DNA of 64,000 bases, from positions 9,881,894 through 9,945,893 of the forward strand of contig JARUPZ010000018.1 in NCBI GenBank assembly GCA_031213475.1, in the 5' to 3' direction. Made by a program: the position numbers and the translations under genes. Of this stretch, positions 1,209 to 62,400 are shown piece after piece. Source of the stretch: Nereocystis luetkeana. Taxonomy: Eukaryota > Sar > Phaeophyceae > Laminariales > Laminariaceae. The notes under the pieces were generated by a model, which saw nothing but the letters and a program-made list of their open reading frames with translations, had not been told where the DNA came from and did not search any database. Each line of letters starts with the position of its first letter. Within the stretch, counting starts at the first letter, position 1.

Positions 1209-2551
1209 GATCTAGCCCCGCAAACTCACAGCTGGCGTGTTTATGACTCTGACCACATACTACTTCGTAAATAAAGATGCCGGTCGTAGGCCGAATGTGC
1301 GATTACTCCTACTCTACACTGCTGTTGACAAACGTAATGACGCATGTCGTAGGCAAGTTAGCCCATTTACTTAGGCCGAATGTACTATAACTCCTACCAC
1401 TCTGTAGGGTAAGTGAAAGTAAAAAAGGCATGACGCGGGCAAGTTATCCCATTTTTCAGCAGCGAAAACGACTCTACCGTTAATCCGGGCGTTGTTAGTG
1501 TTTCGTCCCCGACAAGTGTGGGTGCAGAAGCCACCATCCTGCCTTTTAGGGCAAAAGCTGCAGTCCGGTTCGGGGGACACCCCACCACAATTCTAAGTGG
1601 TTTGTCCTCAAAACGGGGACAGCAGTCCTAAAAGGGATGGGGGGCTGAGTGAGAGGCAACCGCAGACGATCCCCTACGGCAGCAACGATGACGCGAACGA
1701 CTTGTTTCGGTGTCAGTTGGAGTTCCTCGGCAATTCAGAACCCTCGTCCCGGAGAGAGGTTTCCGTGTATCATACGTATATATCATATGATACGGCGATA
1801 CGGCGTTTCGAACCTCGCGCGAATATTCTGGCATGCGGCTTTTCTTTGCGGTGGTATCATAGCGAAACCGCTAGAGACGCAAAGAGTATCGACCCTCTCA
1901 CAAGACAAAAAAACCGAGATACTGGCGAAGGCTCGATTTATTATTTGAGAAAGGGTATATTCCACACTAACTTCATCACTGCCGCTCCAGGATTTCTCAT
2001 GTTCCATTCCCGGAAATATCAAGCGAAGTTTCTATTAATCGTCGGCCCCTTGCTTAAGGGAAAGCCGGGAGGGTACATAACATAAATACAAATATACCCT
2101 GGTACCAGACACATCATATGTACACACAGAAGTGATCGCATCATACACACATACATACACACATACATACATACCAGGTATCCCGTATGTCGGTGTAAGG
2201 TGCGAATAAATTGCGTGCACCTATGGTAGCGTGTAAAACTACTGCCTTATATGAACCTACCTTTTAGGATACTATTAATACTACCCTGGTATTACTTATA
2301 CTATGATTGGCGCCTAGTGCCGACCCACCCACACGAACCCTAGCCCCCTCAAAACCACAACCACGTTTCGGGGACAAATTACTTGGAATTGGTGTAGTGA
2401 AAGGTCGATTGGACGGGGGTAGAGTGCCTCTGAAGTACCACCTGCGTGGTGTGACTGGCGAGTCGTTGTTTTCGAAGCAGGCACGGGCTGCTGGCTACCC
2501 CGAGTTTCAACATGGGAGGCATTGTCACAGCCGATATGTGGTGTAGTTAAC

Positions 2552-2650
2552 CCCTTTAGAACCGCAGTCCCGTTTTGGGGACAGTTGGGGACAAACTACT
2601 TGAAATTTGACTGCTTTGCCCCCAAAATGGGACTGAAGTTCTAAAAGGGT
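2552..2650. repeat. inverted-repeat element B (MITE-like)
   Basis: Termini TTTAGAACCGCAGTCCCGTT and its approximate reverse complement enclose a short AT-rich centre (aaactacttgaaattt). The same element occurs at 6465-6550, 7835-7919 and 50700-50779, with half copies near 1588-1636, 24632-24665, 41530-41560 and 44876-44970. This copy carries an extra internal repeat of the ggggaca segment. It is too short to code for anything, so it would depend on a transposase encoded elsewhere. Confidence 0.75.
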
Positions 2651-59400: not shown

Positions 59401-62400
59401 GACTACGGTCATACATGATATCGAGTACACACTCGGTAAAAACTCGACGCGCTACGTCCCGGCATTGCGAGACGCGAGGGTCTATGATCATACGACTACG
59501 GCCATGCATGATATCCAGTACACCCCCATCCCGACATTGTAGGGATGCGAAGGTCTATGGTCATACTACTACGGTCATGGATGACAATGAGTACACCCCC
59601 CCCCCCCCCCCCCCCCCCCCGTAAAACATGCCGCTCATTGCTTGAGCTAGACAACCAGGGTACCGCATTTTTTTTTGGCGGTCGGTCACAGCTGGTTGTC
59701 GAGTTAGATCATTAGTGCGAGGTGAATAACCTTTACTCCGCACACGTGGGAATGATCGTATCACGTAGTGTTTTTGGTAAGGCACCCAAGAGGCAGTTAC
59801 ATAGTACTCCCATTGCTGTCTCAGAAAATGCCTACACCGGAAATCAAATCCACTCATTGAAGCTGTCATCCATATGCAAGTCCGCCTCAAAAGCGATTCT
59901 TAGTAGGATGCAGCTCACCCTTCATGCGACTCGCCATACACTTTACGGCGTTCCGCGCTTGGTGCAAGCAATGTCTGCCTGGTGGGTGAAAACCCGACAT
60001 GCTCCGTCCCGGCATTGTACGGATACGAGGGTCTATGGTCATACGACTACGGCCATGCATGAGATCTAGTACATCTCTCCTATCGAGTACACCCCCCCCC
60101 CCCGCCCCCCCGCAGAACCCATTTTCCCTATAAAAATCCTTATTACAGAAATCCTATAACGCGGGAGTATCATTTACGCCCCCCCCCCCCCCCCTCCTCC
60201 CTCTCTCTCTCCGAAACCGAGCTCTGAAGCGAGGGCAGTGGCGGACTCACCTCTCAAGAACCTTGTCAAGCGCCCTCCTCGCCACGAATTTCTTGGCGGC
60301 CACAGACATGTGTACCTGAGCGTTGGACGTGCGGTTCGTTCGATATATATGTGTTTCGTCAGCGCTAGTTTCGTTTGAGCCTTCTTAGTTTTGTTTCGTT
60401 TGTTTTCCTGTTATGCGTCGGGCTGCTGTTGTGTGAGGGGCGCACATATCAGGGCTGGGCACAGGCTGATTCAGTCAGTAGCGATTATTCTGTCGTCAAA
60501 ATTAACCAGTACAATGGATTGCAGCAGTATGCCATATTTTCTGTCTACTCTTTTCATCCCGAAACGCATTTAGTGGGTGTCCGTACTGTACTATGGCGTG
60601 TTTCTTGGGCGTGCGTAAACTAAAAACCGCTGGCGAGTATGTCGGTCAGATCAACCGGTAAATACGACTGCCAGTACATACTGCGCCAGTGCCCAGCCCT
60701 CACATGTACAGTGGTGCTTGTTAGGGCATCTTAGTTTTTGAGCCAAGGACAAACAGCGAGCACATGGGGTTGTGTTATAAGGCTTAGCTTAGTTAGTAGG
60801 CGGTCGATTAACCTTACACTAACAGCCCAACAGACTACTGCATTCTCACATGGCATCGTCGGCAGCAGACTACTGTGGTGCCTTAACAGTTTCGCAAACA
60901 CATCGGCGACCTAAATGGCAAGGCAACGGTTGGTGGAAACACCTTTTGGCTCAACCAACTCGCGCTTTGATATCAACCAGGCTACGGTAAAAGGAGTCAG
61001 TCACCTGTCCGGCCCACTCCCCCCGGTCCGGCCGGCAAAACATCCCGTCGACCCGAAACGGATGTTTTTTTCGGCTCTGCGCGAGGACGAGCTGTGCACC
61101 CCTGTGTTTGTACACCGCAAAAACTTCTCTCATCTTCCTGTTCCGCTCGCTTTTTTTCGTGTCCCCATCCAGCAACGCATCGGGTTCAAAACTTCCCCTT
61201 TCCGCCATATCTCCGGCTTGCAGTAGTAGTTGGTTTTCGGTCTCAGAATGGCCAGGGGTAGTGCTCGCTCCGGAGGTCACCGAATCTACAACATCAGGCG
61301 CGGCTACCATGGGTGTGCGGTTGGAGTTGCGGTTTCCACTATTGCGAGCGGCGTTCCGATCATTGGGTGTTGTCCATCTGTGGTGGCGTTCCCGGGGGGG
61401 CTTTCCCGCCATCGCGTCCGCGATGTCTTGCTCTTCGAGGAGCGTAGCTAGCGCATCTTCCACCCTTTTCAGGTCCAACGTTTCGACAACGGTGCCTGCG
61501 TCTTGCCGACGCCCACCAATCTCCTCATGGGGTGCTTCTGCAGCAAACACCGACTGAGGGCTGTTGCCGTGAGCCGGGGCTGCGAGCGGTTTAGAGGATA
61601 ACAAGGAGGCGGTAGGCTGGTAGGGGGTGACGAAGCGCCCCCCCTTGGAGGTGTTTCCGCGCCATTCTTGCACACCGTTGGAAAATCTTGTCACCTGTGC
61701 CGACGGGGATTGGCGGGGCTGTGAGTTGGCTGACAATAAGTCGCCGACTAGGTTCCATGATAAGTATGTAGGGTAGTGAGTTGGCTGACTGTCAGTCGCC
61801 GACTCGTAGTTTGTTGGCTAGGTAGGTTCCATGATTATTAATAGTATACCAGGTATAGGGCTGTGAATTGGCTAACTCCAAGTCGCCAACTAGTTCTCGA
61901 TTAGGTATGTAGGCTTCATCATTAAGGATGGTAGAGCTGTCAGTTGCTGACTATAAATCGACACGCATATTTCCATCATGTACTAAATGGTAACCTCGCG
62001 CCGAATATCGGCGAGGTCGAGCCCGTACGAGGTCTCGCGTCTATCGCCTTGTCGTTTTCTCTCTGGGTACTGCAGCAAACGTAGCAAACCGCAACCCCTC
62101 TCGGCACAACGAAAATAGAACAGTCGCAACTATTGGGGTGGGGCGATATAAAAATGCCGTGGCAACCTCAGCGAACGTGTTAATGTTCTCAATTCGCAAA
62201 GACCGCCCGGGAAACATACACCGACCGTTTCCTCCGTCGATACCTTCGTGCCGTCTATGCACCCTTTGTTGTGTATACCAGGTATAGTAGTAAAGTCCGC
62301 AAGTGTAACACTAACAGTCGTTTTTCCTGCACACCAAACTTCGTCCCTTACCGTCCCTTCCGGGCCGACGTGTGAATCGAACGCTAGTCACGAAGATGCG

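Follow-up and report, generated by a model that had tools for sequence, protein, structure and literature searches.

Why should one palindromic 9-mer, TACCWGGTA (W being A or T), be repeated so often in the genome of Nereocystis luetkeana? The question is raised by a 64-kb stretch of its DNA, hereafter the window (G000:C18:9881894-9945893 of a 465,085,209-base genome), for which a sequence-only reading had claimed more than 40 copies. This was confirmed: the window holds 45 exact copies, where a second-order Markov model predicts 0.56, divided between 22 TACCAGGTA and 23 TACCTGGTA, which are one sequence on two strands. Once simple repeats are set aside it is the commonest 9-mer of the window. 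All 18 coordinates offered as examples in that reading have an exact copy no more than 3 bp away, while the start it gave for the range, 2097, adjoins a 10-bp variant and the first exact copy is found already at 831. We propose, with a probability of roughly 85%, that each TACCWGGTA is the excision footprint, or scar, left by a TA-inserting cut-and-paste DNA transposon.

The abundance is not a local matter. Genome-wide we counted 182,395 copies, or one per 2.55 kb, against 1,744 of a control word (the same pattern reversed but not complemented), which is far from the near-expectation count that had been named as refuting the over-representation. A 264-kb sample, made of the window and the 200 kb to its left, contained 141 TACCWGGTA, one TACCSGGTA and one reversed control; eight more pieces (78 kb, from C1, C5, C10, C25 and C30) contained 2-13 copies each, 47 in total, and four pieces near transposase-like DDE_1 loci (17 kb) contained 1, 4, 0 and 0. 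The word is rigid in its form. Its centre is always A or T, with TACCSGGTA absent from the window and found twice in 342 kb, compared with 188 TACCWGGTA. The half-sites TACC and GGTA are separated by one base in 45 cases in the window, and by 0 or by 2-11 bases in 0-7 cases each. One-mismatch copies in the window number 23, compared with 45 perfect ones. As had also been claimed, the copies are mostly single and dispersed; they form no satellite and do not belong to a single longer repeat family.

Insertion of seven base pairs at TA

TACCWGGTA arises when 7 bp are inserted at a TA that was already there, so that TA becomes TA-CCWGG-TA, which follows from sister repeats that lack exactly these 7 bp. 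We searched 292 kb for such empty sisters by ungapped comparison of the 16-bp flanks on each side of a scar, nested scars being excluded. This left 137 single scars out of 167, and the flanks of 112 of the 137 were complex enough for the comparison. Any paralogue at all was available for 16 testable scars: 12 of them had an empty copy with exactly 7 bp missing, seven had a filled paralogue and three had both. Control TA-N5-TA words from the same DNA (1,226 in total, 1,081 testable) had a paralogue in 307 cases and an empty one in 32, several of these empty hits adjoining a real scar. The difference between 12/16 and 32/307 corresponds to an odds ratio of 26 (Fisher p = 1.2e-8). A looser version with gapped BLAST in 264 kb, in which some alignments were weak, gave 15/24 for scars and 71/379 for controls.

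The five best scars (52892, 204745, which is window 4745, 283333, 284554 and 291866 in the 292-kb numbering) match their empty sister at 31 of 32 flanking bases, and in 9 of 12 cases the best empty copy has TA at its junction. The clean cases within the window are 4745 and 61847, to which 22803 can be added by eye. The TACCTGGTA scar at 4745-4753 is situated in a repeat whose sister at 30367-30523 is without exactly 7 bp; the corresponding empty site, CCTCC-TA-CGAG, occupies 30481-30491 on the plus strand, with the empty TA at 30486-30487. The TACCAGGTA scar at 61847-61855 belongs to a tandem-repeat unit with scar-free sister units at 54.5-54.7 kb, and that at 22803-22811 to a tandem repeat in which, read by eye, another unit has TTC-TA-CCATATTTC without the 7 bp. 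Outside the window, two empty sisters exist for the scar at L142:6518, one of them identical over 22 bases per side (also read by eye). In the same piece, L142:4560-6116 is an inverted duplication with near-identical arms and some scars common to both, and these scars are therefore older than the duplication.

Target preference, nesting and a probable second scar

We compared 260 flanks of 130 scars with all TA sites in the same DNA. Immediately outside the scar (-1) purines are favoured, with T at 7% as opposed to 20% at all TA sites; a pyrimidine is preferred at -2 and A at -3. Further out, A reaches 48% (26% at all sites) at -6 and A+T 78% (55%) at -7. Chi-square values (3 df) were 24-75 at these five positions and 0.4-12.2 from -8 to -16, and in the window alone (86 flanks) the left and right flanks agree at the positions compared. 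Such centring on TA is the mark that a TA-inserting transposase leaves. According to a passage in PMC7913693, ZB favours ATATATAT around its TA, as do Sleeping Beauty and Bari. The claim that the copies share no flanking sequence thus holds in so far as there is no common longer repeat, but not for this weak palindromic preference, strongest 1-3, 6 and 7 bases outside the 9-mer.

Some scars share a TA with a neighbor. Eleven such nested exact pairs were found in 264 kb, eight with the same centre and three with opposite centres. Pairs of this kind should arise if the TA of an existing scar can serve as a target again; those with the same centre could be products of slippage, while those with opposite centres (3/11) are not what slippage produces. 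Within the window, TACCAGGTACCAGGTA at 4314-4329 (exact matches at 4314 and 4321) and TACCTGGTACCTGGTA at 5896-5911 (5896 and 5903) consist of two nested scars each. In other pairs one member has a single mismatch: TA-TCAGG-TA-CCTGG-TA, with opposite centres, at 5832-5847 (exact at 5839, one-mismatch at 5832), TA-CTAGG-TA-CCAGG-TA at 7413-7428 (exact at 7420, one-mismatch at 7413), TA-CCAGG-TA-CGAGG-TA both at 8136-8151 (exact at 8136, one-mismatch at 8143) and at 19308-19323 (exact at 19308, one-mismatch at 19315), and TACCTGGTACCTGGCA at 56267-56282, where it is the second copy that has one mismatch. The 16-mer TACCAGGTACGAGGTA or its complement occurs three times, at 8136 and 19308 of the window and at 108980-108995 of the joined 264 kb. 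Another word, TACGAGTA, is also enriched (42 copies, 9.3 expected) and is perhaps another scar type.

The same genome offers an internal positive control. A miniature inverted-repeat transposable element (MITE) with ends TA-TTACGGGGGACCATAG, of terminal form TTAC...GTAA, is common here, and in 264 kb we found 87 TA-flanked ends TA-TTACGGGGG with up to three mismatches. Their target is TAC-TA-GTA, the flank values being C 46 at -1, A 57 at -2 and T 50 at -3. The word TATTAATA is present in 57 copies where 2.0 are expected, and its 114 flanks point to the same target (C 55, A 59 and T 53 at these positions). Since the target is common to both, TATTAATA fits as the TT|AA scar left by the resident TA-TTACGGGGG MITE. 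Empty sisters of TATTAATA were found for 5/7 copies and for 32/249 controls in 292 kb (p 8e-4). These scars resemble the CCWGG scars in sharing a genome and the TA-X-TA form, and differ from them in the core, TTAA, and in the target preference. An element and its probable scar side by side make the scar reading of CCWGG much more likely.

In the window one copy of the MITE, the presumed source of TATTAATA scars, lies at 4983-5091 and a second copy, of the TTACGGGGG MITE, at 54214-54322, both without assigned strand; a further TA-TTACGGGGGACCATAG copy runs from 37923 onward, and there are others. At 61836-61843 TATTAATA itself, again without assigned strand, is a 6-bp insertion that sister repeat units do not have. 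One of the eight additional pieces, L146 (C10:3000001-3010000), holds 16 TATTAATA in 10 kb, compared with 0-5 in each of the other seven.

Proposed excision, its rivals and the missing element

Insertion, TA duplication and target preference as in the footprint of a TA transposon are all found in TACCWGGTA. On our best reading it resembles a Tc1/mariner-type footprint in its workings and belongs to the same class as the TACWGTA of Sleeping Beauty, here with a 5-nt core. We infer both the Tc1/mariner-type transposase and the overhang chemistry. The element would insert at a TA within a roughly palindromic site (~W-A-n-T-A-Y-R-TA-Y-R-T-A-n-T-W), duplicating the TA. On departure the transposase would make staggered cuts, so that each flank keeps a few nucleotides from the element's termini; the overhangs, CC(A/T)GG or CC(A/T), would pair except for a single A.A or T.T mismatch in the middle, be end-joined and have that mismatch resolved to A:T, giving TA-CCWGG-TA and a net gain of 7 bp. 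In Sleeping Beauty, the two CAG overhangs pair with each other apart from the central base, where the mismatch is resolved in one direction or the other. TA-CCWGG-TA would result from 5-nt overhangs (CCWGG) as well as from 3-nt ones (CCW, with a one-base overlap), and the two are indistinguishable here. Three related words may result when these ends are joined differently: TACCGGTA (23 copies, 4.6 expected), TACCCTGGTA with its complement (10, 0.8 expected) and TACTGGTA with its complement (27, 8.2 expected), whose flanks lean the same way as those of TACCWGGTA, although numbers are small. TACWGTA is enriched as well (98 copies, 39.6 expected; empty sisters 6/17, controls 18/181, p 0.008), but being partly minisatellite it is not used as support.

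The scars would afterwards be inherited and decay. One-mismatch copies exceed expectation by 37 (93 versus 55.6), with 47 transitions where 18.4 are expected and 46 transversions where 37.3 are, which suggests a mean divergence of about 3% per site, as a rough figure. Duplicates that match at 31/32 flanking bases and have the scar in one copy agree with recent activity. If the scars are neutral, a low excision rate per generation would suffice for their number.

Several observations weigh against excision by such a transposon. Footprints of Tc1/mariner elements are put at 2-4 bp besides the TA in a passage of PMC7913693, and the 5-nt core exceeds that size; reported footprints are also often mixed, while these scars are unusually uniform. 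A weak flank bias persists past -7, for example at -11, and at -8 and -12 in the window set. Of the 12 scars with empty sisters, three have a best empty copy whose junction is not TA (CA, AA and TT), one (108987) aligns only with the flank of another scar, and two (103132 and 157699) use one common paralogue.

A further objection concerns the parent. No element with a TACCWGG terminal inverted repeat (TIR) was found in the sample we read, about 0.07% of the genome, a depth at which a family could go unseen with as many as a few thousand copies; against 167 scars in 292 kb stand 0 visible parents. TACCWGG half-sites without a second TA (90 in 264 kb, 111 in 342 kb) revealed no TIR family. Among TA-flanked inverted-repeat pairs starting from TACC, the first 12 of 1,660 looked like chance pairs, scar-to-scar pairs or parts of longer repeats, and so did the CC-starting or rare ones listed among 605 pairs, spanning up to 4 kb, in 292 kb. 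A search for occupied sites with 148 scars returned 176 flank-pair hits, 157 of them from three sites, one being a MITE interior. The 19 hits outside these sites contained no CCWGG-ended element; 25 of the 176, 24 of them from the MITE site, were inspected separately. Two candidate ends were rejected: TACCCTGGTTGTCTAGCTCA, which resembled a TIR, belongs to a dispersed repeat, being preceded by an A-rich stretch and followed by conserved sequence, and TACCAGGCGGATTAGC is internal to a longer repeat.

Transposase domains were searched for as well. Genome-wide, Pfam DDE_3 gave 0 matches and so did Transposase_1, whose controls were silent too. DDE_1 gave 28 loci, some in stop-free open frames of 325-542 codons, and the expected pair of ends was not seen in four stretches that cover 5 of the 28 (L151 covers two). 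Six open reading frames (ORFs) of the window had no Pfam domain matches, and ten neighboring ORFs showed no DNA transposase, with one reverse transcriptase and one integrase among them. These last correspond to a reverse-transcriptase ORF at L125:1735-5541 and an integrase-bearing retroelement fragment at L141:8011-9636. In viral contigs the scan for MITE ends gave 0 matches, while the scan for two close copies gave at least 120 stretches, of which the six inspected were tandem or coding-like repeats or held a few scattered copies, and was uninformative.

How the missing parent should be understood is a matter for more tentative ideas. It is possible, though we would not put it above a minority view, that some 180,000 uniform 7-bp scars stem from a single transposon family that has lost nearly all or all of its elements, so that only departures were preserved. 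Either the ratio of excision to retention was extreme, perhaps with programmed or developmentally timed excision and an overhang exceeding those we saw described for the superfamily, or the family is extinct and the scars are its sole trace.

Among other explanations the one that survives best, though it is unlikely, is a binding site for a transcription factor, or for an insulator or architectural protein, that selection maintains and mutation has spread through the genome, with the flank preference as part of the site. The palindrome, the fixed spacing, the high exactness (45 perfect copies and 23 with one mismatch in the window) and the symmetric preference for AT roughly a helical turn away from the centre would all suit it. 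Such sites, however, form by substitution, whereas here a 7-bp unit enters older repeats and duplicates their TA. At one copy per 2.55 kb across 465 Mb the word is dense for a regulator, TATTAATA has the same TA-X-TA form and insertion behaviour, and the excess of one-mismatch copies is what neutral decay predicts.

Scars could also have been made without an element, by a domesticated TA-specific transposase that cuts and rejoins TA with a fixed 5-nt fill, for example in programmed genome rearrangement. The unseen parent, the very uniform product and the 28 DDE_1 loci with their long open frames speak for this, yet the extra CCWGG requires a template, the parallel of the TTACGGGGG MITE and TATTAATA is explained by ordinary excision, and both the mismatched-copy excess and the scars common to duplicated arms show inheritance. 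We consider it improbable, somewhat more so than the binding site.

Still less credible is an iterated palindrome upheld, as in the case of HIP1, by a DNA methyltransferase or a repair bias at CCWGG. TACCWGGTA is indeed a highly iterated palindrome, and the idea gains from the fact that its core, CCWGG, is a classic methylation site. However, of the 142 CCWGG in the window 97 stand outside the 9-mer, which is no enrichment when compared with 139 CCSGG, the flanking TA pair belongs to the word, and copies enter as 7-bp insertions. HIP1 of cyanobacteria, also a short palindrome of high frequency, is tied to methyltransferases according to an excerpt of PMC4390886, in contrast to the 7-bp insertion with TA duplication seen here. 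A 7-bp unit TACCWGG that multiplies by slippage or in the manner of a microsatellite, suggested by direct pairs such as TACCAGGTACCAGGTA and by the same centre in 8/11 nested pairs, is equally remote, as 137/167 copies are single, no triple run occurs in 264 kb, 3/11 pairs have opposite centres and slippage cannot seed new isolated copies.

Proposed scars along the window and their significance

The remaining scars of the window are single; all scars are listed without strand, and on the basis of an exact match unless stated otherwise. Those of the form TACCAGGTA are at 831-839, 2172-2180, 4881-4889, 6230-6238, 8787-8795, 9642-9650, 10193-10201, 11704-11712, 16046-16054, 32992-33000, 37159-37167, 39212-39220, 44369-44377, 55353-55361 and 62276-62284. 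Those of the form TACCTGGTA are at 3545-3553, 4799-4807, 5484-5492, 6426-6434, 6578-6586, 6885-6893, 6928-6936, 7434-7442, 8462-8470, 8496-8504, 9032-9040, 23843-23851 (its first TA common to a TACTGTA at 23838), 30828-30836, 31279-31287, 39463-39471, 43997-44005, 46398-46406 and 48686-48694. Positions 1-10,000 hold 25 of the 45 exact copies, and local hopping is possible. The window has other repeats too. A palindromic repeat, CCCTTTAGAACCGCAGTCCCG..., is found at about 2547-2656, 6464-6548 and 7835-7919; one copy is TTAA-ended, which hints at a piggyBac-like MITE. Diverged tandem arrays with related units of 15 bp (AGATCATCTACAGAT) and 11 bp (ATGATCTGTAG) lie at 41985-42230 and 57000-57150.

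The sequence-only reading knew of no described element of this kind. This does not hold, as TACCWGGTA fits a describable kind, the TA-X-TA footprint of transposon excision. Sleeping Beauty leaves 3 nt and a duplicated TA, with consensus TACAGTA/TACTGTA, as stated in a passage of PMC4378557; common to it and to TACCWGGTA are the duplication of TA around a short, A/T-centred palindromic core and a net gain of core plus TA (same passage), as well as a symmetric target (PMC7913693, in part). The differences are a core of 5 nt (CCWGG) and a net 7 bp here versus 3 nt (CWG) and a net 5 bp there, going by the same portions of these papers, and the 182,395 copies that accumulated here naturally across the whole genome. 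Stowaway MITEs of grasses leave TA-bounded TIR remnants of 1-4 bp at former intron sites; in the portion of PMC1925063 that describes them they are few, of several kinds per locus and of known parents, while ours are uniform and without a visible parent. The available portion of the main text of an Ectocarpus transposon survey (PMC12477816) does not contain the words "footprint" or "excision". In a limited literature search we found neither the 9-mer TACCWGGTA in print nor, among titles and the openings of abstracts, a comparable genome-wide deposit of footprints. Footprints as such are already known; what is new is a uniform 5-nt core in such number with no parent seen.

Excision normally leaves few traces. 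In N. luetkeana they have seemingly been kept in great number, with a target preference, nesting and decay that can still be read. A single genome could therefore yield measurements of how often a transposon family jumped, how old it is and how it clusters locally, even for a family that has died out. Motif finders could report these footprints as regulatory sites. Scar tissue may make up about 1.3 Mb of the genome (182,395 x 7 bp), and the record also suggests that breaks in this lineage were closed by end-joining and not by templated repair.

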